NCBI GenBank assembly: GCA_905160935.1
Contig: CAJHZI010000645.1
Location: 58,501 to 122,500 of the forward strand
Direction of reading: 5' to 3'
DNA length: 64,000 nt
Origin: Enchytraeus crypticus
Lineage: Eukaryota; Annelida; Clitellata; Enchytraeida; Enchytraeidae
Below, one piece after another: positions 4,752 through 38,395 of this stretch; the first letter of the stretch is position 1, and every line of letters begins with the position of its first letter. The position numbers and the translations under genes were made by a program. A model generated the notes under the pieces. It had not been told where the DNA came from, searched no databases, and saw only the letters and a list, made by a program, of their open reading frames with translations.

Positions 4752-5213
4752 AGGACGACGGCAGGTTTTAGCTCAACTGGTTTAGTTGCGCGTCAATTAT
4801 CGAAGTTAAGCTACATCAACCTCGGTTAGTACTTAGTGGGTGACAAAACCTTAGAAGACCGATTATTAACAGCTTAGGAAGGAAAAAATCCCAGGGTGGT
4901 GGAAGGTTATTCTTAAATCCGCGCCGGCTGCAATTGATGGCCCATCAAAAGGCAACGATTACTAATAACCATTACAGTATGTGAATGCGGCCTGGAGGAG
5001 GAGGACTTTGACCATTTGATGAACTGCAACTTGAGCGGTGATGGGGTCACGCGTGAGGATCTCAGAGAGTTCAATGATCGGGCGAGAGATTTTGTCAGAC
5101 GCTGGATTAATGCTGTATGAGGACACGATAAGAAGAAGAAGCTAATTACCATGGAGAGGAAGAAGGAAATAGGACAAGCATCTGTGCTTCCTGACCCAGT
5201 GCGCCGTTATGTA
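4752..5213 (+). repeat. R3 5S-rRNA-derived SINE (SINE3-type), interrupted
   Basis: Positions 4790-4860 resemble the 3' half of 5S rRNA: GAAGTTAAGC, then GGTTAGTACTTAGTGGGTGAC, then an AGAAGACCG stretch like the 5S internal control region. The following body (GGAAGGTTATTCTTAAATC, AAAGGCAACGATTA) recurs at 16150-16429 and, inverted, at 10800-11097. A 169-bp LINE tail (4973-5141) interrupts it. The last bases of the repeat overlap the stop codon of gene A. Confidence 0.8.
4973..5141 (+). pseudogene. 5'-truncated LINE 3' end inserted in R3
   Basis: The + frame gives a Cys/His pattern (CECGLEEEDFDHLMNC) typical of the C-terminus of LINE reverse-transcriptase ORFs, then a stop and an (AAG)n tail. 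It is bracketed by near-identical 11-bp direct repeats, CTAATAACCAT at 4962 and CTAATTACCAT at 5142, the expected target-site duplication. Confidence 0.75.
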
Positions 5214-5448
5214 TACCCATACACCTGCACCTGACAGATGGAGAGGTACTGGTTGCTCGCTGAGAGCTGGATGAAGAGGTACCTGGCTGGGAGAGATGCA
5301 GGGAGGCAGCACAGAGTGACGGTGGATCCTGCGGGAGGGTAACCCACGTAGAACACACAGAGCGAGTAGTCATCCCTGTCCATCAGAGCCGTGCGCCCCA
5401 TCAGCGACGAGTTTGTTAGACCTACCGTGAAGGTTGACAGCTGCTCGG
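5207..5448 (-). CDS. Gene A exon 5: lectin-like domain, second half, stop
   Basis: The 242-nt exon follows ACATTCCGCAG and encodes FTVGLTNSSL, DDYSLCVFYVGYPPAGS, TLCC and ARYLFIQLSA before ending VYGYT-stop. It aligns residue for residue with exon 5 of gene B. The stop codon TAA at 5209-5207 lies inside the end of the R3 SINE on the other strand, so the C-terminus may have been reset by that insertion. Confidence 0.85.
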
Positions 5449-7866
5449 CTGCGGAATGTAAGTAAAAATAGTCACTGATATTTGTACAAAATATATGAAA
5501 ATATTTGTAAAGAAGAAAATTAAAAACTAAAAAATAATAATTGAAAATAATAATTACAAATTATTTCCTATTAAACAATATTTTCATTGTATTAATTTGT
5601 GTCATATATTTTAGAATCGACTGACGAACTTACGAACAATGAAAAGCCAACTACGGTTGGTATTTAAAGAAAATTGATAAATATCATTAAGGAATAGGAA
5701 GAACTGGATGGCTCATATTCTGAGCGGGGATGGTATACTAAAGGAGAAAATTCCAGAATGAATGCAAGGAAGGTTAGAGGAAGGCCGAGACAATGTATAC
5801 TGGATAATTTGGTATTATTGTTGATATGAAAAGAAAGGTAGAGGTGAGAAATATGCGGAAGAGTTATATGCCTTGGACCTACATGTACCATATAAGAAGA
5901 ACGCTGAGAGAGATTGTAGAATTACTGCAGAGAGTTAGCTTAACGGTATCAAAACTCTCATTTAAGTCCGTTCCCTACCTAAAGAGCTTTTCAGTGATGA
6001 AGAGAACACTAGATTCGAATACTAAATCTATTGCTCCACAGTCTGATAATTTAACAATTAGCTACTGGCTCAGCCAAAATAGTAATAAATTGACAGAGCT
6101 TACGTTTCTGCACAGTATTGGTGATCTTAACTTTCCTAACGGTCGTTATGTTTTTCAGGTCCAGCATCCACCAGGAGAAGGTGGAGCCGTCCCTATCCGT
6201 GCAGGCACAGGAGGCATCCACTCCGGGACCTGATGCTCCGTCTAGCGCTCTCTCAGGACCGTTAGACTGGCAGGCGTTGTGGAAACAAGATGGCGCCTGC
6301 AATGCTGTCTTACCCGGAGACAGGTTTTCTGCTGTCCAACTGTCTGAAGTATGGAACAAGTATAAAGCTCAAAGTTAAGAGAGTGTTAACGTCAGTTTCC
6401 TCACTCGAAAGCGATGTTAGTGACGGGCGAGCCCAGGATATGAACCCCGCACATACTGATCCGAGGCCGAGAATCTTATCGACATCGCCACTGGCTCCAG
6501 CCATATGATATAGCTCAATATAGAAAATTAAGTTTAGTGTCAAGGGGCGGGAACACTAAGGGGAGGGAACACTAAGGGGCGGGCTTTAGAGCTTTGATTG
6601 ACGTGTGCGTCAGAGTCTCGGTTTAATAAAGCCATGCAGGTTCAGTTGGTTGTTAGATCCTTTCAAATAGCAATGGTTGTATTGGCTAAAACTACGGGGT
6701 TTTGGATGGTTTTTCTTGACAACTTGCCAGCCAATCTTCGCCACCTGTACTACGAAATTAGGAAAACGTGAAACTAATCTTGATAACTTTGCAAATACGT
6801 GCGATGTATCATGTGTGTAACTAAAGGAACTAAGAAATCATGTAAAATAAACTGTTCAGTATGACTTATCAACAAGAATCATGCATGTAGACATCAGACG
6901 CTTAAACCACAGATATAAATCCAGGCTAGAGATTGCGTTGTATTTGGGACGTCCCTGACCTCATCACTGTATGAAGAAACGGACGTTAAACCTTTATTAT
7001 TATTATTATTACTATTATGTTTATTTTTATTTGCCAAGTTTCTTCTAATTTAATTAAATAAAAAATAATAAAATATCTAAAATTAGTGCCAAGTGCAAGG
7101 TTACGTTCAAAATTGCAATTGTTGTTACGTGTAGATGTAGCATGTCATCAGGGTAAACGGGATTGTATCCTCTGTGAGCTACGCCCCTGCACGGTAAATG
7201 TTAGTCAAAGTTGAGGAAGGCATAGGGGTCCACCTCGTAAGTAGAATCCCAATAGTATATCAAAACTAATGTTATAGATGATTTACAGATCCACTCGTAA
7301 ATATACATGAAGAGCAAACGGAATATAGAGATGAGTAAAGGCATTATATACCATGGACCTGCCAGTAGGCAGTGCATAATGAGAGAGAGAGAGAGAGAGA
7401 GAGTTAGAGAGAGAAATACGCATATAAACGCTTATAAAGGTCAGACTACCCGAATACTGTCGCTGATCTGTTTTTCTTTGAAAATAACCAAAGTAGTAAA
7501 TAAAAGTATAAGTTTGTAAATATTAAACTAACTTAGTTTCAATATATTGCTAACCATATGACGCCGAATTTTCGACTGTAGATGAATCGTTTCTCTGCAA
7601 TTTACAATAAGCACTGTTGAGATATTAATTTAAAATTATAAAAATTTATAAATGAAATTAGACAATTTATATAAATCTCTAACAAAGACCCATGCTACTA
7701 TTATCATAAGCTCATCCAATCCGCAATTATCAATCAATCAATCACTCCATAAGAATTCAACGTCCGGTTCCTCGCCATAAGCCAATGTCAGGGACGTCAT
7801 ATACAAATACAATGTCAATTATGATATAAAAACGAAAATACGGAAATTAGATAAAAGTCGAAGAAA

Positions 7867-7901
<35 letters not shown>

Positions 7902-10900
7902 TATTCAACAACCTCAGTGTAAAGTCGCATACACACAAAGTGTACAAAAAGAGGAATAAAAGTACTAGCTTACAACAAACGTGAACTATGATTCAAAAGA
8001 CGGGAGAGATTATGATAATAAAATGGAATATTATAATAATAATAAAATAGAAATAAAATATAAAATGATAATAATATTGAGATTATGATAATCAAATGTG
8101 GAAATTATAATAAGAAATCCACTTCAAAACTTAAATGTTTATCCAAAATGATAAGGATTCTAAGCTATTTCTAATCAATGATTGAACTGAATGGTTACCC
8201 GATAAGTCCAACAGTTTGGTAAAATAGAAAGACATTCAGGCTCTTTAAGAGACAGTTGACACACGCCACCCTGTGTGTTGAATGTGAACAGACGGCACCG
8301 GGAGCCCGCTAGATAGCAAAGCAAGGCACAGTCGGTGATGCTGGAGGCAGTTTGAGTGATAGATGGGACATCCGTGGCACACAGAGCGATACCAGCTTCA
8401 TTTTTTAGGAGTCCGAACATATTTGGGTCTCCGGATGAACATAACTTCCGGTTTATAATGTTCTGGCCCACGACATCTGTTGCTGAAATATACGAAAAAT
8501 TGTTTTTTTTAATTCAATTGAAATCATGAAGGTTGAAAATATTTACGTTACAGTTAGAGTTAAGACCACGTGTTAGAGTTGAAGACAAGACTGTATATTT
8601 TTTCATTTATTACCACATACAAGATCACATAAAAAGTAAACACGCGTTATATTGAAATGATCAACTGCGTTGATATCTATCACTTTTAATACTACATGTT
8701 TAAATCGATAGGCAGTTTATACCATTTTCCGTATAACCAGTCCAGTGAATGACCGAGATTTTACTCTCAGATCAGTGCGGCTGAGATTCGAACTCACGAG
8801 GGTTCAATTCACCTCATGATCTGGCATTTAAAACTTCATGATTTTACCACTACACTATTGAGACATTCATAAGCATTTAAACACGCAGAAGGTGTAATAA
8901 ACATTTACAAAATATGTAGGTGAAGAGTCAAATATAGGCTATTAACATAGCACTTACATATTCCGTTATTAAAACTATAAAACCCTTGTGTTTAAGAACT
9001 TAAAAGTCATATTTATTGGTAAATTAGGTAAAATAGAATGTGCCAATTTGTATCAAGTAAGGATGAATTGAAAACAAAACAAATATTTACGCCAAGGACT
9101 AGGAAAAGTTTTAAACACCGCAGTAGAGACCCTATTTCCATATAATAATTATTCCTTTATTTAAATTAATAATAATAATAATAGTAATAATAATAATAAT
9201 AATAAAGGTTAACGTCCATTTCCTCATCCAGGGATGATGTCAGGGACGTCTCCAACAGCACACATCATTACAGATCAGTTCACCCAGACCAAAATGCAAA
9301 AGAACTGTGCTAAGGAGAAGTATTTGTAAAAAAAATTAATCCATCTTTAAAATGTTTATGTACTATAGGGTGTCCAGATAGGTCGTGAACGATTTTGAAT
9401 GCAAAAAATTATATGTTATGCACAATACAATGTGGAAAGTTTGATACTGGCAGATAGGCTGTTCAATTGTAAATAACAGGGAAAATACTGTAGGTTTGTA
9501 ACTTACGTTTCAAAGTGTTGACGTCATTTGCCGTGACGTCATCAAAATGTGCGTAAACAGAAAACTGCCGCAACAGTGCAGTAAATAAACGGCGTATCAC
9601 TGATTAGGCAATGGCAACATTAAACGAAGCGCAAATTAGAGCACAAGCTATTACACTATTGGAAGAAAAGTATAGTTATGGCGTTATAGCAAAAAAACTA
9701 GGTCGTAGTAAAGCGTGGATTAGCAAGTGGGCCAACCGCTACAAGCAGAATCCAAACGAAACGCTGCAGAGTCGTTATCAAGGCGGTCGAAAGTCTGTGC
9801 TGACTGCTGCCGCTCAAAAACTGATTAGGCAGTCTAAATATGTGCGTGGACAGAGTCTGCGAAAGTTAGCACGTCGATTGAAAGACAAACGCTTTGCTGG
9901 ATGCAAAGAGACAATAAGACAGTATATGCGAACGACGCTGAAATGGAAATGCTTTAAACGACAAAAGGTCCCAAAGTTAAGTAGTGCTTATAAAGTCCGC
10001 CGAGTCAACTTTGCGAAGAAGTTTAAAGATATTGACTGGTCGCGTGTCATGTTCACTGATGAATCACCTTTCAAACTTTACTACGTACCTAACAATAAGA
10101 ACGATGTAGTATGGGGATCACAAGAAACTTCTGTTCCGTGCGCGCCACAGGTGAAGTTCAGCCCGTCAGTTCTGGTGTGGGGTGGTATTACAGCTCGCGG
10201 ATTAACAAAACTTCATATCATCCCAAATAAAACTTCAGTTAATTCGACTTATTACATCAATGAGATACTGGAGAAAGAGGTCAAACCAGCATTCCAGCGA
10301 ACAGTTGTATGTACGAATTTAACAGCTACAAAGCTGTTTCGTAATAACGGCGAAGGATTGTTTCAACAAGACGGTGCACGTGCACACACATCAAGAGCGT
10401 CAGTCGAGTGGTTGAACACAAACATTAATGGATATATCTCACCAGAGGACTGGCCACCTAATTCTCCGGATTTGTCACCGATAGAAAATGTTTGGAGTAT
10501 TATGGCGGCAACGGTTTATGCCGATCCTGAACCGCAGACATTGAACAGCTTGAAACGCCGGATTCGAAAGGCGTGGAAATCGATACCTCTGAAAACTCTG
10601 ACAAATCTAATTGGCTCGATGCATGATCGACTTGACGCTGTACTGAAGAATAAAGGAGACATTATTAAATACTAAATGACAATTTTTATAAATTTGTTAC
10701 TAGTGGATTAAAAATGGCAGTCATTCAAAATCGTTCACGATCTATCTGGACACCCTATATATATAAAGGTTACTGAACTAGCGACATAAAATAGGTTACC
10801 TCTCGTATTGTTATACGGACGTCATACGGCGAGAGCTGTTTCATTGTTTAACTGTTGTTTTTTAGTTGTCACTCTTTCTTACTTCTTTTCCATTGGTATT

Positions 10901-12095
10901 TCTAATCGTTGCCTTTTGCCAATGATAGATTGAGGCGACGTCTGCAATCGATCCGATTTAAGAATAACCTTCCAGCATAACGAGATTTTGTGTTTAAAAG
11001 TTGTCAGCACTCGGACTTCCGAGGTGGTCATCCATCTAAGTAATAACCGAACTCGACGTTGCTTAACTTCGTTTTTGAAGCACACGCTAAACCAAGTCCA
11101 ATATAAACCGCTCTTGGTTTTATATACGAAAAACATGAAATGTTAAGTGGTTATCGGACTGCATTGTAACTGATCTCACTTTCTCTACTATCTATGCGTT
11201 TACTATTGCAATTAGATGATGTATAGCAGCTTGCGGTCATATGTTCCGCTTGGGACATACATCATCTTCGAGTGAGGAAACAGATGTTAAATATTCATTT
11301 TATATTACTTACTTATTTATTGTATTGTAAAGTACTGTATTGTATTGAATCGAGATAGCTATAGATAAATCAATGTTACAAAAATTGCAACAGAGTTTCC
11401 TAAAAAGAATGAAACGGTTGGGGATTGACTGACGATAAGGTATGGGACAGAGGAGTGAAGAGGGTCTATTTGTATCCCGATTCTAGTTAAACTGGGATTA
11501 AATGGAAGATGATGATGATGGTGATGATGATGATGATGATGAATGATTATGATGATGATGATGCTGATGAGTGATATTTTACTGTTATTGAACGAATTGT
11601 ATGGAGCTACATTTCTTGTCATATCGTATTGTATACTATATTATCGTATTATATCGTATAGTATCGTATCGTATATTACTACATTTGTAGTACCTCATCC
11701 TATTTCTAGCGAACTATGCTTCTTAGTATCTTCTTGTTCTTTTTGTTCTTCTTCTACTTCAGTGCACTGCCAAGTGGTAGGTTCAAGGTTTATATTCATA
11801 CTCAAAGTCTGCTTTCTCGCTCCATAAGAGCACTCCTTAGATCAACAAGTTAATCCCTTCACAAAGTCTATGCCTTATGCCTTATCCATACCTAATGTAG
11901 CCTATATCTTGGGAAAAAGTATGATTTCTGAGGTGGTTTTCCATTGCCTTCCTTATTGGTATAACAAATCATGTTTTTGTTTAAGATAAATACAGAGAGA
12001 AACAAACCTGACAGGACGAGTAGTATCACAAGCACAGTGACGTTAAGCATAACAGATAACCATACTAATGACGTCATGGTGACGTAGAGAGGCAT
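5207..12095 (-). CDS. Gene A: secreted PAN/apple plus F-type-lectin-like protein
   Basis: I predict a five-exon gene: 12095-12008, 8482-8199, 7594-7555, 6343-6104 and 5448-5207. The joined frame is 894 nt, encoding 297 residues plus stop. Residues 1-29 are a hydrophobic signal peptide; about 30-124 form a cysteine-rich PAN/apple-like module; a 13-residue Ser/Thr/Asn linker follows; the last 160 residues resemble F-type lectin / F5-8C domains (SWWMLDL near the middle, ARYLFIQLSA and CQVQVYGY at the end). All junctions have AG/GT borders and intron phases 1-0-1-1, identical to gene B. The likely role is an extracellular carbohydrate- or surface-binding protein, perhaps in recognition or mucus. 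Known fucose-binding residues of F-type lectins are not evident, so sugar binding is unproven. Expression is not shown by the sequence. Confidence 0.75.
5680..5905 (+). pseudogene. LINE 3' end fragment (GA-tailed family)
   Basis: It reads as a degenerate copy of the C-terminus of the LINE at 49558-51213: RNWMAHILSGDG corresponds to KKRWIGHILRGEG, followed by the rGRPR region and a stretch like the ATGGACCTGC end. Stops and frameshifts disable it. It sits in intron 4 of gene A. Confidence 0.65.
6104..6343 (-). CDS. Gene A exon 4: lectin-like domain, first half
   Basis: The 240-nt exon begins after ATACTTCAG and ends at AAAC|GTAAGC, a strong donor, in phase 1. It encodes the N-terminal half of an F-type-lectin/F5-8C fold with PERALDG, SCACTD and SWWMLDLKNITTVRKV, matching ADLAVDG, SCSHT and SWWQVDLQNITRVRYV in gene B. 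Confidence 0.85.
6378..6506 (-). repeat. R1 tRNA-like SINE copy
   Basis: On the minus strand it carries the R1 head (TGGAGCCAGTGGCGATGTC), a box B-like GGTTCATATCC and the shared core CGAGTGAGGAAACTGACGTT. It lies in intron 3 of gene A, about 35 bp upstream of the exon 4 acceptor. Confidence 0.85.
6540..6588 (+). repeat. 18-bp G-rich tandem repeat
   Basis: Three copies of AAGGGGMGGGAACACT-like sequence. The G runs could form a quadruplex on the plus strand. Confidence 0.7.
6947..7020 (+). repeat. R5 SINE-like element
   Basis: GGGACGTCCCTGACCTCATC is followed by GAAACGGACGTTAAACC and a (TTA)n tail. Confidence 0.75.
7150..7415 (+). repeat. SINE-like element with LINE-derived tail
   Basis: The first 110 bp (from GGTAAACGGGATTGT) match 28412-28520 but not the LINE. 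The last 110 bp (TTATAGATGATTTACAG through CCAGTAGGCAGTGCA and a GA run) match the 3' end of the LINE at 49558-51213. Two independent copies with the same junction suggest a SINE that borrowed a LINE tail, or a deletion-derived LINE. Confidence 0.6.
7555..7594 (-). CDS. Gene A exon 3: 40-nt linker micro-exon (predicted)
   Basis: The PAN exon ends in phase 0 and the next lectin exon begins in phase 1, so an exon of 3n+1 length is required between them. The 40-nt segment after AAATTGCAG and before G|GTTAGC fits exactly and encodes RNDSSTVENSASY, a plausible flexible linker with potential N-glycosylation at NDS and ENS. The G left over completes an Asp codon with exon 4. Confidence 0.55.
7722..7812 (-). 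repeat. R6 SINE-like element, (ATTG)n tail
   Basis: Read on the minus strand: GACGTCCCTGACATTGGC, then GGAACCGGACGTTGAATTC, then an (ATTG)n tail. The same order recurs at 28905, 48855 and 57163. Confidence 0.75.
7869..7899. repeat. (TA)n microsatellite
   Basis: Uninterrupted TA dinucleotides for about 30 bp in intron 2 of gene A. Confidence 0.95.
8199..8482 (-). CDS. Gene A exon 2: PAN/apple-like module
   Basis: The exon is 284 nt, entered in phase 1 after TATATTTCAG and left in phase 0 at TATCGG|GTAACC. It encodes eight cysteines, with TDCALLCY near the middle matching TECALHCQ in gene B. This spacing suits the PAN/apple superfamily, which commonly mediates protein or carbohydrate contacts outside cells. 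An alternative acceptor six bases further in (CAACAG) would drop two residues. Confidence 0.75.
8641..8878 (-). repeat. R2 tRNA-like SINE copy
   Basis: Nearly full-length inverted copy of the element at 1107-1340, in intron 1 of gene A. Confidence 0.8.
9166..9256 (-). repeat. R5 SINE-like element
   Basis: An (AAT)n tract leads into GGTTAACGTCCATTTCCTCATCC and GATGTCAGGGACGTC, the reverse complement of the R5 core. Confidence 0.8.
9366..10757 (+). mobile_element. Intact DD37E Tc1/mariner-type transposon
   Basis: The element is 1392 bp with terminal inverted repeats of about 37 bp. The left end begins TAGGGTGTCCAGATAG, and the right end is its complement with one early mismatch (GGTC against GATC). 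It is flanked by TA on both sides (9364-9365 and 10758-10759), the standard target duplication of this superfamily. One uninterrupted transposase gene fills the interior. The near-perfect ends and the open gene suggest recent insertion. It lies in intron 1 of gene A, in the opposite orientation. Confidence 0.95.
9611..10675 (+). CDS. IS630/Tc1/mariner transposase, DD37E class
   Basis: The 354-residue protein excises and reinserts the surrounding element by cut-and-paste at TA sites. Residues 1-110 form paired helix-turn-helix DNA-binding regions (YGVIAKKLGRSKAWISKW is clear). The catalytic triad is visible: D150 in VMFTDES, D254 in FQQDGARAHT and E292 in SPDLSPIENVW, with 37 residues between the second and third, hence DD37E. 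VWGGIT around 189-194 is typical of the superfamily. Length matches active relatives and there is no internal stop. The start is the first ATG of the frame, 245 bp inside the left end. Whether it is active cannot be read from sequence. Confidence 0.95.
   Translation: MATLNEAQIRAQAITLLEEKYSYGVIAKKLGRSKAWISKWANRYKQNPNETLQSRYQGGRKSVLTAAAQKLIRQSKYVRGQSLRKLARRLKDKRFAGCKETIRQYMRTTLKWKCFKRQKVPKLSSAYKVRRVNFAKKFKDIDWSRVMFTDESPFKLYYVPNNKNDVVWGSQETSVPCAPQVKFSPSVLVWGGITARGLTKLHIIPNKTSVNSTYYINEILEKEVKPAFQRTVVCTNLTATKLFRNNGEGLFQQDGARAHTSRASVEWLNTNINGYISPEDWPPNSPDLSPIENVWSIMAATVYADPEPQTLNSLKRRIRKAWKSIPLKTLTNLIGSMHDRLDAVLKNKGDIIKY
10800..11097 (-). repeat. R3 5S-rRNA-derived SINE copy
   Basis: On the minus strand, GAAGTTAAGCAACGTCG then TACTTAGATGGATGACCACC and GGAAGTCCGAGTGCTG closely follow the 3' half of 5S rRNA. 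The body GGAAGGTTATTCTTAAATC and AAAGGCAACGATTA matches copies at 4752 and 16150. It is the best preserved 5S-like segment in the window, but it lacks the 5' part and is not a functional 5S gene. Confidence 0.85.
11380..11562 (+). repeat. R4 SINE-like element, 3' part with (GAT)n tail
   Basis: GGGGATTGACTGACGATA, GGTCTATTTGTATCCCGA and AGTTAAACTGGGATTAAATG precede a (GAT)n tract. The same order occurs in the copies at 19745 and 31395. Confidence 0.75.
11835..11960 (+). repeat. R8 dispersed repeat, copy 1
   Basis: It shares AATCCCTTCA, the AGAA/GGGAAAAAG-to-TCTGAGG region and CCATTGCCTTCCTTA with 15575-15690. Only two copies are seen in the window; the origin is unknown. Confidence 0.55.
12008..12095 (-). 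CDS. Gene A exon 1: signal peptide
   Basis: The exon starts at an ATG and gives MPLYVTMTSLVWLSVMLNV followed by a Val/Leu/Ile-rich run, a typical secretion signal of 29 residues. It ends at CTGTCAG|GTTTGT, leaving phase 1. Joining the final G to the CA that opens exon 2 makes an Ala codon. The start is chosen as the only ATG that places the hydrophobic core near the N-terminus. A short N-terminal membrane anchor is the alternative reading. Confidence 0.65.
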
Positions 12096-12580: not shown

Positions 12581-12587
12581 TATGCAA

Positions 12588-12760
12588 GATCCCCGTGTTG
12601 TGTCCGGGTTGCTTGAAGAATAGACCAACCGTGTAAAAATGCACGTGTCGTAGAAGGTGACATAAAAACCAGATCCAAACCAACGTCCGGAAAAAGGCTA
12701 TCGGTTGGTGAGCGCTTAGACTCCAGAAATTGCTATCTTGTCTGTTAAAATCTTGTCTGC
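12588..12760 (+). repeat. R4 SINE-like element, 5' part
   Basis: CCCGTGTTGTGTCCGGGTTG begins the element, followed by CACGTGTCGTAGAAGGTGAC and GGTTGGTGAGCGCTTAGACT. The 3' half is missing or diverged. Confidence 0.75.
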
Positions 12761-14635: not shown

Positions 14636-14639
14636 CATG

Positions 14640-15417: not shown

Positions 15418-15450
15418 GCTCTCTCTCTCTATTTCTCTCTCTCTCTCTCT

Positions 15451-24179: not shown

Positions 24180-24418
24180 CTAAAACCCGTACACCTCCAC
24201 CTCGCAGAGTGTGAGATACTGTGCTGGAGCGGAAAGCTGGATGAAGAGATATCTGGCAGGAAGTGACCGTGGATCACAACATAGGGTGACGTTAGATGAT
24301 GCTGGGGGAAACCCAGGGTAGAAATAGCACAGCGAGTAACTACCCACGCGTACGAGACCTGTCTGACCAGATAGAGATGTGTTGATCAGCCCAACAGTGA
24401 AGTTTGCGAGTCGATTCT
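24180..24418 (-). CDS. Gene B exon 5: lectin-like domain, second half, stop
   Basis: The 239-nt exon follows TTTAATTGCAG and encodes NRLANFTVGLINTSL, YSLCYFYPGFPPASS, NVTLCC, ARYLFIQLSA and LCEVEVYGF before TAG. Every landmark aligns with gene A exon 5. A LINE tail lies just downstream and an R1 SINE (24450-24565) begins only about 30 bp upstream of the acceptor. Confidence 0.85.
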
Positions 24419-26836: not shown

Positions 26837-26869
<33 letters not shown>

Positions 26870-28653: not shown

Positions 28654-28687
<34 letters not shown>

Positions 28688-31600
28688 AGCAATATATTCA
28701 CTGCTAACTTAATTGAAAAGGCAGTGATCTGACTAATTTCTCTCATCTCAGATTGTAGTTTTGCCTAATGCTGATTGATAAATTAGTATAATTGGTATTT
28801 CAAATTTAGTGGATGAACATATTGGATCAATTAGTTGGATCAATTAGTCGGATGAATCTGTCGAAAATTGCAAACTAAGCAGAGAGGGAGAGCGAGAGAT
28901 GTTTGACGTCCCTTGCCATTGCCTTATGACTAGTAATCGGACGTTAAATTCTTATTGATTAATTGATTGAGTGCGAGAGAGAGAAACTTTTTTAATTTCA
29001 CCGGTACATTACAAATACGTATAATAACATGCGCACACACACACGCAAACATATTTATTCATGAAGTCTACAGGTGAATCTGACTCACCTTAACATTATT
29101 TATTTTCATTTTCTGTACATTTTACAGCGCACTTCATGATTCAGAATCGTAGTAAATGACGACTTAGAGAATAATTTATGATGATGATCATCATCAATCT
29201 TATTGATTGATTGATTGAGAGAGAGAGACTTTGAACTGATTTTCAGGATTTTGGAATTTGCAACGTTTGTGGACCTTCTTTTTGCTCGCCGGCTTGAATT
29301 TGTCTCAATAGTGCTCGATGTTGTCATTGATGACTGTAGCACTCTAATTATTGTTGTTATTATTATCATCTTCATTAAATCTCCGCCTGGCTAGGTTCGG
29401 GATACGAGTAGAACTTCTTTTCCATTTCTTTTAGAAACATTTGTAGCTATTTCTGGAGCCTATAGTTGGCTATCACCAACTGAATCCCTTTCTGTCATTG
29501 GTTTGGATCTTAGTGCTTTGTCGCTTTTACAGTACGTGCAATCTACGGGTGGTCTATTCTTCAGTAACCGGACACAACACGGGTAACTTATCGGAAATAT
29601 TGCTGCTTATTAAAATAATTTCCTCTAAATTTAGTCTCTTGAGAAATGTAATGTTCCAACCTGGTTCATTGAAGAACTGCAGCAGCAATGGCATGACATT
29701 TACCTGAAACGACAAGAGAAGTAGTGCTTACTCAATTATCACTAATTACTAAAGTTTAACAATCTCTTTCTCTCTCTCTCTCTCTCTTTCTCTCTCTTAA
29801 TGTACTGCCTACTGGCAGGTCCATACTATCATAGTATATAACGAATGATTAAACAACACTATTAGTAACTCTTAAAAGAGAGATAATCTTGTCAATGAAA
29901 ATGTTTCGTTTTGTATTTAAATGAAATCTATTTTTTAAATGATCTAATTGCAACTTTATAATAATTTTTGTAATAACAATATCTAATCAGCTTAGCAATG
30001 GATATTTAGAGCAGGAGGTGTTGTCGTGGATGACTGATATTGTAGAATCTATGTACCTTCTTTGGATGCAATAGTTTATAATATAAATTTTAATTTAACT
30101 GTTTCTGGTATTATCAAACAAATGGACAATTTCCAGCCAACCAAATTGTGGAACTAAATAAATTTAAATTTGCAAACAAATCTGACAATATTAAATGACT
30201 TCTTTCAGAGAACATTCAAAAATGATTACGAATTTTAGTAAAACAAATCTTTAAACTGCATGTTTAAACACTGATTGTTATACTAAGTTAAGAGTTGAAA
30301 TATTTAATAGTCATTCGCCAGACACTCTCTCTCTCTTTCTCTCTCTCTCTCTTTCTCTCTTTCATTTAAAGTACCTTACCGACATCACCACTGGCTGGTC
30401 GGTAAGGTACTCGACCGCGGATCAGTATATGCGGGGTTCAAATCCTGGGCTCGCCCATCACTGACATCGCTTTCGAGTGAGTAAACTGACGTTAACATTA
30501 GCTTTTTTATCTTTTATTGTTTAGCTATCATAAGCAAAGGTATGATTAGTCACGGAGAGGATTAATAATAACCTGCCAGGAACTTGTTAAGCGGCCTCGA
30601 AGAACGGACACCGGCCATGACACCGATTTAGAAATTGTCGGAGGTTATTGTATTATTAGCACAATTTTTCACACCATAGATTTTTTCATCCTGCCTGACT
30701 GTTTCTTGATCACCGGACCGGCAACGTTTAGGATATTTTCCTTCTTTTCAGCGTATGTTTTTTCAGATCGCTTGGGGTGAATCGATTTGTAGTGACATGT
30801 GATGGGGGTGTCATAGTTCTCTATAAGGGTGCTTCAAAATCAATCTGTTCTAATTATAGATTATAATTATTTATTTATGCATTATTATTTATTCCATTAT
30901 TTATTTGTATTTATTATATGCTATGTTATTTAATTATATTAACGTTTCGTTGAATATTTATATATAGTTTTTATCTCGCTTTTTAGTTATGGTTTCTTAT
31001 TTAAAATTGAATTTAAATTGAATTGGAAATTGAATTTAAACCTTTATTACTATTATTACCTGATAGGATACGCAGCAGCCCGGAGAGCAGGGCTCGGGTG
31101 GAATGACGGGACAGACAGCCTGACCTGGAAACAGTCGACACTCCACCCAGGTGTCGTCCACGGAGACGACGCTGAAGTGGATACACCAGGACTGTGATTG
31201 ACAGTGAAGAGCGCACTCCGTGACAGAATTCAAGGTCATGGTCGTGGCATCGCTGTTAGCAGAGATGAGTGCTGCCCCAGTGTCATCCAGCAGTGGAACG
31301 TATGTTGTGATACCTGAGCAAGTAAGATTTAGTGATTTACTCTGTATATTATACAGATATATTATAGATTTTGTGATTTATTCTGTATATTATACCCCGT
31401 GTTGTGTCCGGGTTGTTTTAGGAATTGGCCAACCGGTGACTGCACGTGTTGTAGAAGGCGATTAGAACACCAAGATCCATACCAGCGTCAGAAAGGGATT
31501 CGGTTGGTGAGCGTCTAGGCTCCAGAAATTGCTACAAAAATTTAAACGAATTGAAAAGTCTCAAATAGGGGATTTGTTGGTGGTATGGTGTAGGACAGAG

Positions 31601-32098
31601 AGGATTTGAGATAGTCTATTCGTATCCCGACCCTAGTTAAACTGGGAATCAAGGGAAGATGATGATGATGATGATGATGATGACCCTGTATATTATGTAA
31701 GAGGGTGCTTCGAAGCTAATCTGTTCTATTTATACATTATTTATTTATTAATCGTTACTTATTCCATTATTTATTTATATTAATATATGTTATTTGCTTT
31801 AATTATATTAATATTTTCGTTTCATATTTATACATAGTTTCTGGTCTCGCTTATCTCGCTTGTTAGATAGAGTTTCTTATCCGCTTTTGTCGAAGAAGGC
31901 GACTAAGGCACTAAGATCCAGATAAACGTCAGAAAGGGCAATTTGTTGGTGAGCGCCGAGACTCCAGAAATTGCTACAACAATTTCTAAAACGGTTAGAA
32001 GAGATTATCGGGGATTGACTGATGATATGGCGGGGGCAGTGAAGAGTGGGGAAGGTCGATTTGTATCCCTACCATAGTTAAACTATGATTCAAATGAA

Positions 32099-32130
<32 letters not shown>

Positions 32131-35100
32131 GTTTCCTATCTCGCTGGTAGGGTGTAGTGTGTCACGTAAATTCAACATTTAGAAACACAAACTTCATTTA
32201 AGACAAAACGACACATTCGAGATACCGTCGCAAATTTTAGTGCAATATATTTACAGCTTTCATCCTATTTACTCGTAAAACATAACAATGCATTATTGCG
32301 CATAATTCAAGAATAGAGAATATTTGTATGCTAGTATATTTAAATTATTATAATTTTCATAATCACCCGTGTTATGTTAGGGTTGCTGAAGAATATAAAA
32401 ACCTTGGACTGCACGTGTCGTAAAAGTGACAAAGCACAATCAAATCAAAATTTCATATGAATCTACCAATATTTAATTGGTAATCTCAAAATTAGGATTT
32501 TAATCAGAATTTGTTAGAATTATGAGATTGAATGAATTTAAGCTTCTTTTCAACTGATGGGCTATTAGAGATTAAGCTCTTCCAGTGTATAGGATATACA
32601 TCAATAAGATACTATTTCTCTCTCTCTCTCTCTCTCTCTCTCATTGAAATGTTCAGAATCACTTCTGAGGAAGTATAAGTTTATTTTAAATACGTTTAAA
32701 TACATTTCAGGTCAGTTAGAGGTCTCAAATCATTTCAGTTTTTAAGTTTAAATCACTTCAATTTCAGTATCAGTTTAAGTAAAACCGATGAAAATCATTG
32801 AAGTTTTTCTCAGATCTGTTTAACTAAGTGTCCTTCTTCTATGGAATCTTTGTAGCTCCCGAAATGCCACAGCCTATTAGATCAGGTTTCTGAAGTGTTA
32901 GTCTTTAGGTGAGGCTCATGAATCTGCTGCTGTGATGATTTAGGCTGTTTCTCGTCAGCATCCTGCTTTTGCGTGATAATAACAATACAATATTGCAAAG
33001 CACGAATGGCATAAAAAATCTTTTTTCCAAATCGTAATTGAAAAACATATTGGATAACATAGAGATTTATAATGAGCTAGGTATTCTATAATATTTTAAT
33101 ATTACACTTCGAGTTACGGAATTTTATCTGTTTCTTATAGTTTCCAATACTTCAGATATAAATAGTGCCCATGTGATTGGTAACAGTAAATTATGATTAA
33201 GGTAAGTGTTGAGCTATGCCATAAGGGTAGACAAAATCTAATTTACATTTATATACAAAATTTGAAATGCACCCTTTCAAGAACTTATAGCTCTATATTA
33301 ATCTTAAATAATTTTAAATAATATATTTTAGATATTAATTTTCTTACAAGTAAAATATAGTGCTACAGTACAATTAAAAATTTAAAATTAAAATAAAAAT
33401 GAAGATTAAAGCCTCCAGTTTATTAAGTTCGAGATACAAATAAAATAAAATGTTTAGCCTTATATTGGATGATCTTTTTGTTTGTCATTAAAATATTAAA
33501 TTTAGGTATATTTTTGCTCCTTATTAGGGTTTGTAATAAAAGAAAATTACCAAAAATGCGAAAAATATCAAAATATTTCTATTTATTTTTACAGTGCCAA
33601 TCGGCACTAGCATGCCACTTGGACATTTTGTCCAAGATTATTATAAATCGTTATTATTGGAAAATTAGAAAATTAGAAATTAGAAATCGACTTGCAAATT
33701 GTCTAGTTTTGGTGGAATAGAAAGATTTGCTATCCATTGTGTAATTTTTCGAAATCTGCACAATATATATATATATATGGAAAGATATATAATTTCAAGA
33801 CTTGAAGGGAAATTTGCCCCTTGTAGATAGGCGACCTGCCCTCTCCTTATTTTAACCCTCCATATATTTTATGTGTGACAAATATAATAGGCCTGTACAG
33901 GTATAACTAGAGCCGGTAGCTTGTTGAAAAGTAGACAGAGGGCTCAAAGCGATTGCTCTCTCTCTGTCACTGACATCATTTTGAGACATGGAAACTGACG
34001 TTAAGCAGGCCTTTGGCTTTAGAGATATCAATAATACAGTATACATCAGCTATAAGTATATTAAACTAAGCCAAAATAAAAGATAAAATCAAATTGTATC
34101 ATAAATTACTGTTATCAAAACTAAGGTTCATGGCACACTAGTGCCGTACGGCACTGCACAAATCTATTACTTTATTTAATATGAAAAACTATATTTTTCA
34201 TTATGTAACGGCTATACTGTTCGATAATTGTATCTTCTAAATGAAAACTATTTTTAATACAACATAGTTTCAACAGAGGCCCTGTAGTTATGCCCGAAAA
34301 TGTATCATTTTTACCTCTGTCAAAATTTCTTATCAATGTTTATGTTATTGAATTTTAGCGCCAAGGAAGTCACATGGTTCAACCTTTCCATGTCGCAAGT
34401 CAAAAACTTCATAATGCCGGACGACACTAGCGTGCAATTATCGCATTTTTCGTTAAGGCATATTACTCTACATCAACGGAAAGTTACAGTGCCGTTTGGC
34501 ACTCCAGTGCAATATAGGGTTAATACCGAAAACAAGAATCGTTGTTTAAAACATTTTGCCTCGGTTTTCAGAAATTCTGCATACACTGAAGCACTTTGGG
34601 TTTCACGTGTGCTTTCAGAATTCTTTCCATTTTGCAACATTTTCCTTTGTCATCTACTACTGTGCTTAATGCTTAAACTGTTATCCTTGTGAGCTTTATA
34701 AAGGATTTTGGCGTTTATTGCCCGCCAATGACTGAATTAAAGTTAAAGTTGCCATTATTAAGTCAACTAAATTTATTTAACAATCCTAGACATCTGATGG
34801 ATATGAGCGACAGTAAATGCAAGAAAATAATGGCCCAAAACCAAAGAGCGCCACTAAATAAACGACAAGACCAGGAAATAAAAGCAATGTGTTTTGTATC
34901 TATCTTAAAAATGATATTGTTCTTCTTTAGCAAAGCGAAAATAATACGAGCAATTCAAAATCGGTATCAGTTTTACAAATTATTTTAGTTTCAGTTTTAG
35001 TATTAAAAGCTTCATTTCTATTTCTCAATTCAGTTTGAGATTCAGTTTAACATATCGTTTCAGTTTCAGTGCCAGATTTAGTTCAACTGATAAAAATCAG

Positions 35101-38100
35101 TTCAGTGTAAGTTTAAATTAACTGAAATATATGAAATTAAGGTTTAGGTATTATAGCTCTATTTGTTTGTCAATGCTGCTCCCTTCCGTCAATGAAATAA
35201 GACTTTCAATAGAATTAATTATTTTGGCACTGCCACTGTGCAAAACTCTAAAGAGATAAAGAGAGAGAGAGAGAAAGAGAGAGAGAGATGTGTTTATTTC
35301 ATCATCGACACCAAATCACTGACAAATACAAATAAAGAGATGCTAACTAATAGCAGTTGAACCGGTTGGATGGCCGAATTGATAGCACGCATGAAGGAAA
35401 ACAAGTAAGCCATCGGTTGGAATCTCAACCAGACTGTCTCTTACAGATTCTCTTGTCATACAGAAACAGACGTTAGAATTAGCTTTATTTCTTTGCCAGC
35501 AAGCTTTGTAATCTTTATTAACAAGCGCCGTAATCCAATATTACAGTATCTAAAGTATTGTAATTAAGTAAGAAATTGAAGCTTCAATTCCTGCAAATTA
35601 CCATCAATCAGGTCTACAATTCAATCAGTGCGGTTTGCATTGATTGTTTATTTATATTTATCTATTTTATTATTTAGGCCCTAAACGTTCAAATATATCA
35701 ATTTATCAAAATTAACAAAATCAACAACTATTGTTGTGTTGTTATTGTTGCCAGCCCTAGCATTGTTTACGATGCTGACCTCTTTTAACCTCAGTATTGC
35801 AAAATTCATTTTGTAAATCGTTCCTTTTCTATTCCGCTTATAGCTGAGTTGAATTCAAAAAATTTATTACAAAAAATGGATTAGAATACGGACTCATCTA
35901 ATTCATGAGCGCACTAATGTAATGAACTTAAGAACAATGAGTATAAACATTGAATAGAGCATAATCTCTGGAAAACATTAAAGCTACGATGATTACAATC
36001 GATAGATATTTACGGATTAAAGAACTTGACTCAACATGTAAAACTACTCTACCGTGTCAAAAGGAAAACGGTCTCTGTCGATTACTAGAGAATTGCTTAA
36101 TTCCATTAACACACAGTGTGACGTTTAACTATTGTTTGGTTTACAGTCTTGCAAACAATTTGCTAATTAAGTCTAAAAGCAATCTTAATTCATTGCAAAG
36201 AGCTATGTCTCTTCTGGTGAAGAGGAGTTTTTTGTTTAACCTGTTCATGCAAGCATGCAAACTGTGCTTGCTTCTTTCATCGAAGGACTTACTCAATCAA
36301 AAATTTATGAAATCGACTTAAAATCTCCCTTTTAGCGTGCCTTCTATCCCTATTCGGGGTCAACACGGAGAGAATGGTTTGGAAATGGAACACTGATGTC
36401 GGCTATCCATCTGACACTACCAAGTGTATACGACTAGGCTTTCATTCGCCATCGGAACAGAAAAACTCACGTCACTACGCAGTCTCGAACCCGCGACCTC
36501 TCGTTCAAGGGGCGAGCTCTGTAGCCGCTTCGCCACGAGGCGTTCGCATAAAATCGACTTAAACGTTTCAAATAAAATACCTTTATTAGCCTTTATAACA
36601 CATGCACTCTTAATTTGTAGCAGGGTTTATTTGTTCGCTTAGTCTCCCTCAATTAAAAGCTTGTTAATCCCCGTTTGTATAGCGAAAACAGACGGGAAAC
36701 GCTAAATTAAACCGTAGTTACATTTTAATCTATCTTGACATCTATCACCTTTAACAGATTTTGAAATAATCCGAAAGCTCTACCGGTATCGAATCAATGT
36801 TAGTTCATTTAATCTCAGGAAATGCCTGTTAAAGTTTTAAAAAATGATCTGAGATTATATAAAAGCAATTTTGCGGGGGTTTAATTCCTGGGCTCGCACG
36901 CCACTGATTTCGCTTTCTAGAGATGAAACTGACGTTAAAATCGGCTTTACAGCTTTTATTAAGTTGGGATTTCAACCGACCAAAACTGCTTGTAGTGCAA
37001 GTTTGCTATCAATTCGGCCAGTCAATCGAAAAATGTTATCTATATTTTTATTGGTCAATACAAAATCTACCTGATCTATGATTTAATGAATCATCAGATA
37101 GATGTAATAGTTATCTACCTGATCTATGATTTCATGAGTCATCAGATTAGATGTAATAGTTATCTACATGATCTATGATTTATTGAGTCATCAGATAGAT
37201 GTAATAGCTATCTACCTGATCTATGATTTAATGTGTTTATGATTTAACGAGTCAGCAGGTTAGATGTAATAGTTATCTACATGATCTATGATTTAATGAG
37301 TCAGCAGATACATGTAGATGTAATAGCTATCTACCTGATCTATGATTTCATTAGTCATTTTTGGCTGAATATGTTGGCATAATAATTACACCTGCTACAT
37401 GTTGATACGTTGTTCAACAACGGATCAGAACGTGGCAGGGTTCAAATCCAGTGCTCTCCCGTCACTTACATCGAAAAGGAAACTGACGTTAAACTTGGCC
37501 TAAACTTTTTTCCAAATTTTGGGGCATATGCTAGTGCTTTAAAGCCCTTATGTTCAATTTCGCTTTATATATATATATATATATGCTTTTATGCTGGAAC
37601 CAGTGGCGAAGTCGGTAAGATACTCGACCGCGGATCAGTATATGCGGGGTTCAAATCCTGGGCTAGCCCGTCACTGACATCGCTTTCGAGTGAGGAAACT
37701 GACGTGACCTTAGCTTTTTTTAGCTTTATTACATGGTTGTTGCCACCTGAAGAGAAATATGTTTCCAATTCAAACTTAACTCTATAGGCCTACTAACGTG
37801 AAATATAATTAACACAACCCGTATCTTATCCTGATTGTTAAACAATACGGTATACATGTATATGCAATATGACACTGTACAATTGTACATACATGTATTA
37901 CTCGAATTATATGTGTCAAATAAGCATCAGCTGAAAAGGAGAAGGGAAATAAACTCATACACTGTATTTTCTAAACACATCATTAAACTTTAAGTTTAGA
38001 TAGGGGCACAAGCAATAAGCTCAAATGTCTAATAGCATATTTAAGTAATTTTAAATTGATATGAAGAAAAATAATAAAAATAAGGGGTACAAGCAATAAG

Positions 38101-38395
38101 CCGAAATGTCTAATTTGATATTTGAGTGATTTTAAATTGCCATGAAGAAAACTAAGAAACCTAAGGGGCACAAACAGTAAGCTGAAATGTCTAATATGAT
38201 ATTTAAGTGATTTTAAATTGATGTGAAGAAAACTGTAAGAATATGTATATTAGATCTGACAGTTTAAAAGAATAAGAGAAGTCGAAAGATAGAAAGTAAA
38301 TAATGTACAGAGTCGGACAAACCTCCAGATGATGACTGATATAGTAACGAATAGTAAAGTATGACGCACAAGAACTTCAGCAACCATAGGTACAT
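24180..38395 (-). CDS. Gene B: secreted PAN/apple plus F-type-lectin-like protein
   Basis: This is the paralogue of gene A. Predicted exons are 38395-38323, 31313-31060, 29703-29661, 27797-27549 and 24418-24180. The joined frame is 858 nt, encoding 285 residues plus stop, with intron phases 1-0-1-1 as in gene A. Order: signal peptide, PAN/apple-like module, short linker, and an F-type-lectin/F5-8C domain (LALHKPAIQSSTY, ADLAVDG, SCSHT, SWWQVDL, then SLCYFYPGF, NVTLCC, ARYLFIQL and TLCEVEVYGF). The domain is close to textbook F-type lectins in its WWxVDL, ITNR and LCEVEV motifs, but the His and Arg-x-Asp fucose-contact pattern is not apparent. An extracellular recognition role is inferred. Introns are long (3.1-7.0 kb, except intron 2 and 3 of 1.4-1.9 kb) and full of repeats. 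Confidence 0.75.
24450..24565 (-). repeat. R1 tRNA-like SINE copy
   Basis: Minus-strand R1 with box B GGTTCAAATCC intact, in intron 4 of gene B next to the exon 5 acceptor. Confidence 0.9.
24955..26670 (+). mobile_element. Degenerate piggyBac-like element
   Basis: The ends CCCATTCGTGGCCA (24955-24968) and the complement of CCTATTCGTGGCCA (26657-26670) match at 13 of 14 bases. TTAA, the piggyBac target, follows the right end; the left flank is TACA, probably mutated. An 18-bp palindrome TGTTCCAATATTGGAACA lies beside the left end and again at 26522-26539, with a third degenerate copy at 25304. The interior is a broken transposase gene. Confidence 0.8.
25392..26366 (+). pseudogene. piggyBac transposase pseudogene (PGBD-like)
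   Basis: Pieces in different plus frames recall piggyBac transposases: an acidic N-terminal stretch (SDEEETEFELVDHF), the entry motif SPVELFKTFFNDELYVKL, which parallels the PxELFxLFFxDEL signature, and a C-terminal Cys/His zinc-binding tail (HCRICKKNTAFGC). The central catalytic Asp region is missing or unrecognisable, and several stops and frameshifts are present. The gene is dead. Confidence 0.75.
26742..27105 (+). repeat. GT-rich degenerate tandem repeat
   Basis: Repeats of GTGTGTATGT, GTTGTGTGT and similar fill the region; Cys/Val-rich frames across it are artefacts. Confidence 0.9.
27169..27210 (-). repeat. 39-bp repeat, detached unit
   Basis: A fifth unit of the 27409-27564 array, about 200 bp further into intron 4 of gene B. 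On the gene strand it contains AATG|GTATGT, a consensus-like splice donor. Confidence 0.7.
27409..27564 (-). repeat. 39-bp in-frame tandem repeat at a splice donor
   Basis: Four 39-bp units cover the end of gene B exon 4 and the start of intron 4. Each unit carries the donor-like AATG|GT at the same phase, and no unit introduces a stop on the gene strand. Confidence 0.9.
27549..27797 (-). CDS. Gene B exon 4: lectin-like domain, first half
   Basis: The 249-nt exon starts after TATTTCTACAG. It encodes PDSSLNLALHKPAIQSSTY, ADLAVDG, an SCSHT segment and SWWQVDLQNITRV, ending ITNRSNN at AATG|GTATCG in phase 1. The frame stays open into the intron because the region is a 39-bp in-frame repeat, so the donor could lie one or more units further on. 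Confidence 0.8.
27930..28210 (+). pseudogene. Reverse-transcriptase C-terminal fragment
   Basis: The frame reads AGGAAVHAASRKLDKYRDL, VVPVAIETMGPMNPEGVDF and, after one TGA, ETSFFGKALNRF. The P-V-A-x-E-T-x-G pattern, then a conserved R-E-T-S-F-F-like ending, is familiar from the C-terminal segment found beside LINE reverse transcriptases in invertebrates. The TGA replaces an expected Arg codon. Confidence 0.6.
28230..28352 (-). repeat. R5 SINE-like element with (AAT)n
   Basis: (AAT)n then AAGGTTTAGCGTATATTTC and GATGTCAGGGACGTCCC, the complement of R5. Confidence 0.75.
28412..28685 (+). repeat. SINE-like element with LINE-derived tail, copy 2
   Basis: Same head (GGTAAACAGGATTGT) and same LINE tail (GGAGGCGTTATATACCAT, GTAGGCAGTGCACTAAGAG, GA run) as 7150-7415. 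Confidence 0.65.
28905..28980 (+). repeat. R6 SINE-like element, (ATTG)n tail
   Basis: GACGTCCCTTGCCATTGCC, AATCGGACGTTAAATTC, then ATTGATT repeats. Confidence 0.75.
29345..29585 (-). repeat. R4 SINE-like element, near full length
   Basis: Complement of R4 from its tail (TTATCATCTTCATTAAATC) through AATCCCTTTCTGTCATTGG to CCGGACACAACACGGG. It lies just downstream of the predicted exon 3 of gene B. Confidence 0.8.
29661..29703 (-). CDS. Gene B exon 3: 43-nt micro-exon (predicted)
   Basis: As in gene A, phase 0 to phase 1 requires a 3n+1 exon here. The 43-nt segment after CTTCTCTTGTCGTTTCAG and before CCAG|GTTGGA fits and encodes VNVMPLLLQFFNEP; the G completes Glu with exon 4. Splice signals are strong, but the peptide is more hydrophobic than its gene A counterpart, so this is less certain. 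Confidence 0.45.
29762..29852 (-). repeat. LINE 3' tail with (GA)n
   Basis: On the minus strand, CCTGCCAGTAGGCAGTACAT followed by GA repeats matches the end of the LINE at 49558-51213. Confidence 0.65.
29860..30325. other. Non-coding DNA in gene B intron 2
   Basis: AT-rich, nothing recognised. Confidence 0.5.
30328..30362. repeat. (CT)n microsatellite
   Basis: Interrupted CT run next to an R1 SINE. Confidence 0.9.
30369..30520 (+). repeat. R1 tRNA-like SINE with fold-back head
   Basis: The copy is well preserved (GGTTCAAATCCTGGGCTCGC, then the shared core), but its 5' end is preceded by an inverted piece of its own head, so GTACCTTACCGA (30371) pairs with TCGGTAAGGTAC (30399). Confidence 0.85.
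30566..30668 (+). repeat. R7 SINE 3' fragment
   Basis: CCAGGAACTTGTTAAGCGG, then TGTCGGAGGTTATTGTATTA, the tail part of the R7 copies at 51815 and 60675. Confidence 0.65.
30735..30830 (+). repeat. R5-related fragment (5' part)
   Basis: GGGGTGAATCGATTTGTAGTG resembles the sequence before the R5 core at 1830. Confidence 0.4.
31060..31313 (-). CDS. Gene B exon 2: PAN/apple-like module
   Basis: The 254-nt exon follows TTACTTGCTCAG and ends TATCAG|GTAATA in phase 0. It encodes VPLLDDTGAALIS, then SVTECALHCQSQSWCIHF, VECRLF and a C-terminal cysteine cluster ending SYQ. The ECALHC motif and final aromatic residue match gene A exon 2, which ends TYR. A strand-opposite reading frame at 31220-31465 is a shadow. 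Confidence 0.8.
31395..31685 (+). repeat. R4 SINE-like element, full length
   Basis: Runs from CCCGTGTTGTGTCCGGGTTG to the (GAT)n tail and is the most complete R4 copy here. It lies in intron 1 of gene B, about 80 bp upstream of exon 2. Confidence 0.85.
31888..32131 (+). repeat. R4 SINE-like element, 5'-truncated
   Basis: GCGACTAAGGCACTAAGATC through AGTTAAACTATGATTCAAATG and (GAT)n. Confidence 0.8.
32366..32440 (+). repeat. R4 SINE-like 5' fragment
   Basis: CCCGTGTTATGTTAGGGTTGC and GCACGTGTCGTAAAAGTGAC only. Confidence 0.65.
32440..33590. other. Non-coding DNA in gene B intron 1
   Basis: AT-rich. A (CT)n run lies at 32617-32641. Open frames here are AT-driven and lack splice signals. Confidence 0.5.
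33590..34527. mobile_element. Possible non-autonomous piggyBac-like remnants
   Basis: Palindromes of the type AGTGCCNNNNGGCACT occur at about 33593, 34139 and 34486. The last leads into CCAGTGCAATATAGGGTTAA, which looks like a piggyBac right end with its TTAA. A TTAACCCTCCATATATT at 33852 could be a left end. Only weak end similarity is visible and there is no transposase. Confidence 0.35.
33928..34022 (+). repeat. R1 SINE 3' fragment
   Basis: TCTGTCACTGACATCATTTTG followed by GGAAACTGACGTTAAGCAGG, the shared SINE core. Confidence 0.65.
34530..35350. other. Non-coding DNA in gene B intron 1
   Basis: AT-rich with TTTCAGTTT-like repeats (34986-35110) and a (GA)n run at 35262-35289. No coding signal is convincing. 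Confidence 0.45.
35360..35500 (+). repeat. tRNA-like SINE with the shared core
   Basis: GGTTGGATGGCCGAATTGATAG resembles the 5' arm of tRNA-Leu/Ser; a B-box-like GGTTGGAATCTC follows. The tail TTGTCATACAGAAACAGACGT then TTAGAATTAGCTTT matches the R1 core end. Confidence 0.6.
36440..36548 (-). repeat. tRNA-like sequence, probably a SINE head
   Basis: On the minus strand, CGTGGCGAAGCGGCTACAG is a good box A and CGGGTTCGAGACTGC a good box B about 35 bp later. The acceptor stem does not pair convincingly and no CCA-proximal structure is clear, so a tRNA-derived SINE is likelier than a functional tRNA. Confidence 0.6.
36871..36965 (+). repeat. R1 tRNA-like SINE, 3' part
   Basis: GGGGGTTTAATTCCTGGGCTC then ATGAAACTGACGTTAAAATCG. 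Confidence 0.8.
37065..37360 (+). repeat. 48-bp tandem repeat, about 6 copies
   Basis: Units begin ATCTACCTGATCTATGATTT and include GAGTCATCAGATAGATGTAA; spacing is about 48 bp with some partial units. Confidence 0.9.
37412..37510 (+). repeat. R1 SINE, variant subfamily (R1b)
   Basis: AACGGATCAGAACGTGGCAG, box B GGTTCAAATCC, CTCTCCCGTCACTTACATCG and GGAAACTGACGTTAAAC. The copy at 46601 shares its variant positions. Confidence 0.75.
37591..37740 (+). repeat. R1 tRNA-like SINE, well preserved
   Basis: GGAACCAGTGGCGAAGTCGG through GGTTCAAATCC and CGAGTGAGGAAACTGACGTG; preceded by (TA)n at 37567-37584. Confidence 0.9.
37999..38240 (-). repeat. 81-bp tandem repeat, 3 copies
   Basis: Units of 81 bp start AGGGGCACAAGCAATAAG. 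They lie in intron 1 of gene B, ending about 80 bp below the exon 1 donor. Confidence 0.9.
38323..38395 (-). CDS. Gene B exon 1: signal peptide
   Basis: From the ATG the frame gives MYLWLLKFLCVILYYSLLY followed by QSSSG, a short signal peptide with a plausible cleavage site after a small residue. It ends at TCTGGAG|GTTTGT in phase 1, the same border and phase as gene A. The G joins GT of exon 2 to make Gly. A longer upstream frame exists but lacks this phase agreement. Confidence 0.6.

Follow-up and report, generated by a model that had tools for sequence, protein, structure and literature searches.

Expanded, tandemly arrayed genes for probable secreted PAN–F-type-lectin-like proteins in the annelid Enchytraeus crypticus

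A 64,000-nucleotide (nt) stretch of the Enchytraeus crypticus genome (NCBI GenBank assembly GCA_905160935.1, contig CAJHZI010000645.1, positions 58,501 to 122,500 of the forward strand; hereafter the window) carries two neighbouring genes, A and B, each of which appears to pair a PAN/apple module with an F-type-lectin-like domain. Gene A spans positions 5207–12095 (894 nt, 297 codons) and gene B positions 24180–38395 (858 nt, 285 codons), both on the minus strand (Table 1). The original prediction, made from the letters of the window, had assembled ten minus-strand segments into two five-exon genes with these codon counts and a shared phase pattern of 1-0-1-1, and the reassembled open frames, with AG/GT at the junctions of gene A, bear it out. 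Exon junctions of both genes were predicted from the DNA alone, and the splice scores used are simple counts made for this analysis. The two proteins align over 267 residues with 40% identity (E-value 5e-50, with B as a 282-residue model). The highest 15-residue hydropathy of protein A (2.76) lies in exon 1 and that of protein B (1.91) at the N-terminus, and an in-frame stop codon is found 81 nt upstream of the ATG in A and 51 nt upstream in B. Both hydrophobic N-termini are probably signal peptides, although that of A could instead be an anchor.

Table 1. Predicted exons of genes A and B, in window positions
Feature	Position	Strand	Description
Gene A exon 1	12095-12008	-	Start codon, hydrophobic N-terminus, probable signal peptide; ends in phase 1
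Gene A exon 2	8482-8199	-	PAN/apple module, entered in phase 1 and left in phase 0; searched by itself, the exon matches PAN_1 at 3.2e-7
Gene A exon 3	7594-7555	-	40-nt linker exon, uncertain; a linker is needed by the frame
Gene A exon 4	6343-6104	-	N-terminal half of F-type-lectin-like domain, with C and T where the triad has His and its first Arg
Gene A exon 5	5448-5207	-	C-terminal half of domain, with Q in place of the second triad Arg; stop codon
Gene B exon 1	38395-38323	-	Start codon, hydrophobic N-terminus, probable signal peptide
Gene B exon 2	31313-31060	-	Divergent PAN-like module
Gene B exon 3	29703-29661	-	43-nt linker exon, uncertain
Gene B exon 4	27797-27549	-	N-terminal half of F-type-lectin-like domain, retaining His and the first Arg of the triad
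Gene B exon 5	24418-24180	-	C-terminal half of domain, second triad Arg, stop codon

The assembly to which the window belongs (524 Mb in 802 contigs, designated here by C numbers, with the window in C550) was searched for related genes, the match counts being lower bounds. Exon 5 of A as a query identified 30 places in the genome and exon 4 of B identified 28, A and B being included in both counts. An upstream exon 4 on the same strand accompanies 27 of the 30 exon-5 places at a distance of 0.5–5.8 kb, and these pairs are distributed over eight contigs. The unpaired places are the exon-5 matches at C345:1314024 and two on C706, where there is only a weak exon-4 match (5.3e-4), and the exon-4 match at C345:1297223. 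The expectation of further members outside the window is thus confirmed by paralogues across the same genome, whereas the description of the family as small does not hold, as there are at least 27 exon-4/exon-5 pairs on eight contigs, A and B included. Within the window, profiles of three coding exons gave only A and B above threshold and no further complete copy. Head-to-tail arrays are present on C345, C208, C286 and C765, with an exon-5 spacing of about 8–15 kb, broken on C345 by a single 26.8-kb gap. The analyses below cover 21 of the 27 pairs, A and B included; two pairs on C208, one on C286 and three on C345 were left out. A PAN exon was located upstream in the right order in 19 of the 21 genes (16 at first and three when more flanking DNA was taken). 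Paralogues beyond the window repeat this exon order, which makes a chance assembly of the exons of A and B very unlikely.

In a tree of 20 family rows and the two domains of FBP32 (the binary tandem F-type lectin of striped bass; PDB 3cqo), A joins B at 97/92, in agreement with their prediction as tandem paralogues. The end branch of A is the longest in the tree (1.32, compared with 0.44 for B) and leaves its place unsure. The genes mostly cluster by contig, as fits tandem duplication, with C328 and C696 sitting among the C345 genes. C345_3, the exon 4 of which is cut by the locus edge, is absent from the tree, from the mean exon identities and from the column counts, but was included manually when the triad residues were counted. 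The C696 copy has in-frame stop codons just upstream of its PAN match (locus L020, about 5757–5846) and no good PAN acceptor, and it may be damaged in its 5' part.

Searches of Pfam and of solved structures, which for B used the 282-residue model, agree on the nature of the C-terminal domain. In Pfam, matches passing the cut-off were obtained for A with F5_F8_type_C_2 (1.3e-6) and PAN_1 (4.8e-6) and for B with F5_F8_type_C_2 (8e-9) and F5_F8_type_C (1.1e-6). The best solved relative of both proteins is FBP32 (B, 3.3e-20 over residues 130–281; A, 5e-15 over residues 168–296), followed by eel lectin (B, 1.6e-5; A, 4.1e-5), a fucolectin-related protein and Sm-hPAF. The matches to FBP32 and eel lectin provide, for both A and B, the domain-wide sequence similarity that serves as a criterion for F-type lectins. 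For the N-terminal module, a profile built from 14 paralogue PAN exons (A and B excluded) and searched in the window detects A at an E-value of 2.1e-15. Six cysteines are invariant in all 16 aligned PAN exons, those of A and B among them, and 14 of the 16 match PAN_1 at an E-value of 0.1 or better, the threshold used for this count. PAN/apple proteins are among the 37 solved sequences that a profile of all 16 exons matches at an E-value of 1 or better (MIC4, the best, 2.9e-7; plasminogen, 0.0021; hepatocyte growth factor, 0.0033).

The fucose site of F-type lectins comprises the triad His52-Arg79-Arg86 and the motif HX24RXDX4(R/K), from which some published F-type domains deviate; FBP32 keeps the triad in both of its domains, though one has lost the Cys-Cys bridge (PMC5712786). 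The triad positions are occupied by H, R and R in B and by C, T and Q in A. The original prediction that obvious fucose-contact residues are lacking is therefore correct for A and not for B. Across the 21 genes the histidine is present in eight, the first arginine in 18, the second arginine in 16 and all three in eight (B and seven others), and the A-x-D-G of the cation motif is found in 20 of 20 rows. In B an N replaces the D of the motif and only five residues separate the arginines. The second domain of FBP32 likewise has five residues between the arginines and no Cys-Cys pair while retaining the triad; a shortened loop alone is therefore no argument against sugar binding. B is predicted from these residues to keep fucose-type binding, and A, having lost all three, is expected to have a different ligand or to bind no sugar at all.

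The predicted last intron divides the domain. An exon-4/exon-5 junction of phase 1, the only phase sought, is available in 21 of the 21 genes, and in each of them this placement puts the intron between the positions of the triad arginines, within the fucose-motif loop. When acceptors of any phase are considered for exon 4, the top-scoring one has phase 1 in 17 of 20 genes; all 16 PAN donors have phase 0, one of them as a tie. For comparison, the FBP32 gene has introns near Glu123-Cys124 (eel numbering), and in oyster bindins an intron lies in the middle of each F-type domain, where recombination takes place (PMC5712786). Gene B offers two donors of equal score for exon 4; that at 27558, which would give 282 codons, was rejected for its departure from the paralogue loop length, and that at 27549 is preferred because it fits this length and gives 285 codons with the chosen exon 3.

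Exon 3 is uncertain and is the weakest part of both gene models, and its choice leans partly on the codon counts of the original prediction. The chosen segment in A tops the 40-nt candidates, with a 43-nt candidate (7575–7533) and some longer ones scoring slightly higher, and that in B is second by splice score to a 25-nt candidate (28652–28628). Candidates of 49 or 52 nt in B were rejected, one 52-nt option introducing a stop codon. Exon 3 of A aligned to the intron of B with a score of 34, which does not rise above shuffled sequences (mean 32, maximum 41 in 50 shuffles). A search of five paralogues for a linker exon, with the frame imposed, yielded candidates with good splice sites in all of them: conserved candidates of 25 nt in C765_1, C765_2 and C765_3, and one of 19 nt, or of 40 nt with another donor, in C345_5 and C328. 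A short linker exon is thus probably a feature of the family, as judged from these candidates.

Rates of change were compared between exons in eight gene pairs selected by hand from a larger set. The proportion of nonsynonymous differences (pN) is higher in exon 4 than in exon 5 in all eight pairs, five of them singly at p<0.05. For A and B the values are 0.47 in exon 4 and 0.26 in exon 5 (p=5.9e-5), with 0.47 in the PAN exons; the proportion of synonymous differences (pS) in exon 5 of this pair is 0.68. When seven pairs are pooled, with loop boundaries drawn by hand from the alignment, the exon-4 loops have a pN of 0.28 and a pN/pS of 0.70, the exon-4 framework 0.11 and 0.46, and exon 5 0.09 and 0.39. 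This pattern is one of faster change in exon 4 and does not prove positive selection. Synonymous differences vary among the exons in three of the eight pairs (the C172 pair, C286_1/2 and C765_3/4; p<0.05, uncorrected) and do not in the other five. In the C172 pair the synonymous divergence is 0.09 for PAN, 0.53 for exon 4 and 0.24 for exon 5 (PAN versus exon 4, p=2.5e-6). The PAN exons of this pair are 92% identical, lying in an isolated match of 267 bases (locus L015, 5704–5970; locus L016, 4617–4883), exon 4 is 69.7% and exon 5 82.4% identical, and the flanking introns have no match in place. The variation in the three pairs is compatible with exon-wise gene conversion or exchange, on which the DNA alignments are not decisive; in the C172 pair such conversion is possible.

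Taken together, these observations make it likely that A and B are members of an expanded family, arranged in tandem arrays, of probable secreted PAN–F-type lectins that recognise glycans. Each protein, translated from a transcript spliced as modelled, would consist of a signal peptide, a PAN/apple module, a short linker and a single F-type-lectin-like domain. In such a protein the top loops of the lectin domain would bind terminal fucose or related glycans, and the role of the PAN module would be to attach the protein to a partner or to further copies of it. The last intron would cut the loop between the triad arginines: the triad histidine and the first arginine, together with several loops on the ligand side, would be encoded by exon 4, and the second arginine and much of the conserved scaffold by exon 5. 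Duplication, combined with faster change in exon 4 than in exon 5, would then produce a set of differing recognition surfaces on a shared body. Immunity and fertilisation are both processes in which F-type lectins take part (PMC5712786), and we infer that these proteins may have a role in immunity or in gamete recognition.

Several results weigh against this interpretation. The PAN_1 match of B (0.018) is below the Pfam cut-off, and the profile from 14 paralogues ranks B third in the window (E-value 0.031), behind an unrelated frame (0.029). The PAN module of B is called because of its position, its phase, its six cysteines and the alignment of exon 2 of B to exon 2 of A (score 63, compared with a maximum of 59 in 1000 shuffles), and it is the weak point of the domain assignment. 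The pairing of PAN and F-type-lectin-like domains that had been predicted for both genes consequently stands for the lectin-like domain of A and B and, by profile, for the PAN module of A, with that of B falling short of the cut-off. No PAN exon was found in the upstream stretch searched for C345_1 and C345_6 (two of the 21 genes), and the best PAN-exon acceptor has phase 1 in just 12 of 16 genes, the exceptions being C208_3 and C286_2 (phase 0) and C286_3 and C696 (phase 2). The full triad is missing in 13 of the 21 genes, such that sugar binding may not be the function common to the family; the full motif HX24RXDX4(R/K) occurs in none of the 21; and the number of residues between the arginines is five (13 genes) or seven (three genes), with the canonical six in none and one or both arginines absent in five genes. 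The mean identity over 16 genes is lowest for the PAN exon (0.364), followed by exon 4 (0.441) and exon 5 (0.493); exon 4 is therefore ahead of exon 5 in rate of change, with the PAN exon less conserved still. The pS of the exon-4 loops is also raised (0.40, compared with 0.23 in the framework and 0.22 in exon 5), the C286_1/2 pair is reversed, with loop pN below framework pN, and the pooled loop pN/pS lies below 1, so that these figures do not demonstrate diversifying selection.

A further possibility, to be held tentatively, is that the lectin repertoire is built for diversification by exon, the intron within the fucose-binding loop leaving exon 4 free to change, or to be exchanged between gene copies, apart from both the PAN module and the scaffold encoded by exon 5. 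Under such a scheme the loop length would shift at the splice edge, to five or seven residues, and alternative donors, such as the two of equal score that lie 9 nt apart in B, could give loop variants from one gene.

The C-terminal domain might alternatively belong to the broad F5/8C (discoidin-like) class of adhesion or matrix domains, the proteins being secreted adhesins of matrix or mucus and the triad of B a leftover. The top Pfam match, F5_F8_type_C_2, is described as a galactose-binding domain and would suit this proposal, as would the genes that lack the full triad, A having lost all three residues. However, the solved matches at an E-value of 1 or better (eight for B, seven for A) are led by F-type lectins and fucolectin-related proteins and include no coagulation-factor or discoidin domain, and H-R-R is retained in eight of 21 genes and A-x-D-G in every row, making a general adhesin unlikely. 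An equally improbable alternative is a gamete-recognition set like oyster bindin, in which sperm or egg proteins diversify by exon exchange. The mid-domain intron and the mixture of triad states resemble those of oyster bindins (PMC5712786), and the three pairs with differing synonymous divergence among exons, most strongly the C172 pair, are as this alternative would predict. Against it, the other five pairs display no such difference, each gene has one domain and a PAN module rather than tandem repeats, and the loop pN/pS is below 1. That A is a decaying copy and B alone is functional is very improbable, as A, for all its long end branch and lost triad, is open across five exons with GT/AG splice sites, has the better PAN module of the two and has in exon 5 a pN well below the pS relative to B.

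Other features of the window include a Tc1/mariner-like element (9364–10759) within intron 1 of gene A on the opposite strand, with an open frame of 355 amino acids (9608–10672; DDE_3 match, 5.1e-9) and 38-nt terminal inverted repeats that are 97% complementary. Reverse-transcriptase fragments lie on the plus strand at 50041–51180 (RVT_1, 8.7e-12 and 0.0019). A dispersed 30-base core is present in five copies (6416–6445, 24474–24503, 30436–30465, 37649–37678 and 59251–59280) with at most three mismatches, compared with a mean of 0.00 expected from shuffles; its tRNA-like look is an impression only. Sixteen GA/CT runs are scattered through the window; such runs have been noted in oyster bindin introns and are not used as evidence here.

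The ingredients of the proposed PAN–F-type lectin family each have a known precedent. FBP32 resembles it in the triad positions and the cation motif and, in its second domain, in the inter-arginine spacing and the absent Cys-Cys pair; it differs in having two F-type domains and no PAN module and in the position of its introns, the last intron of the family studied here being placed between the triad arginines. Oyster sperm bindins share the mid-domain intron and the mix of triad-bearing and triad-less domains, but comprise one to five tandem domains encoded by few genes, with PAN unmentioned in the parts of PMC5712786 drawn on, in contrast to the many single-domain PAN genes found here. The fucolectin gene family is expanded in the gastropod Gigantopelta aegis, a likeness to the present family, and 'PAN' as a whole word occurs zero times in the main text of that report (PMC7895826). 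In the molluscs Biomphalaria and Lottia, fibrinogen-related proteins join PAN/apple to a recognition domain of immune type, which is a fibrinogen domain instead of an F-type lectin (PMC7588048). The order PAN plus F-type, which according to the original prediction may define an uncharacterised family, was not encountered in the open-access literature searched, which is weak evidence of absence; this includes the parts drawn on of PMC8878817, PMC7895826, PMC3269628, PMC7588048 and PMC7191736, and PAN is not among the F-type partner domains named under domain organisation in PMC5712786.

Two known recognition modules are thus joined in an order not met in the literature searched, in a large and partly tandem family within one genome. 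With exon 4 holding much of the presumed sugar-facing surface, outpacing the other half of the domain and ending within the binding motif, the family offers a testable case of the diversification of glycan recognition in invertebrates. The triad-bearing B and the triad-less A are adjacent sister genes in which function may be compared.

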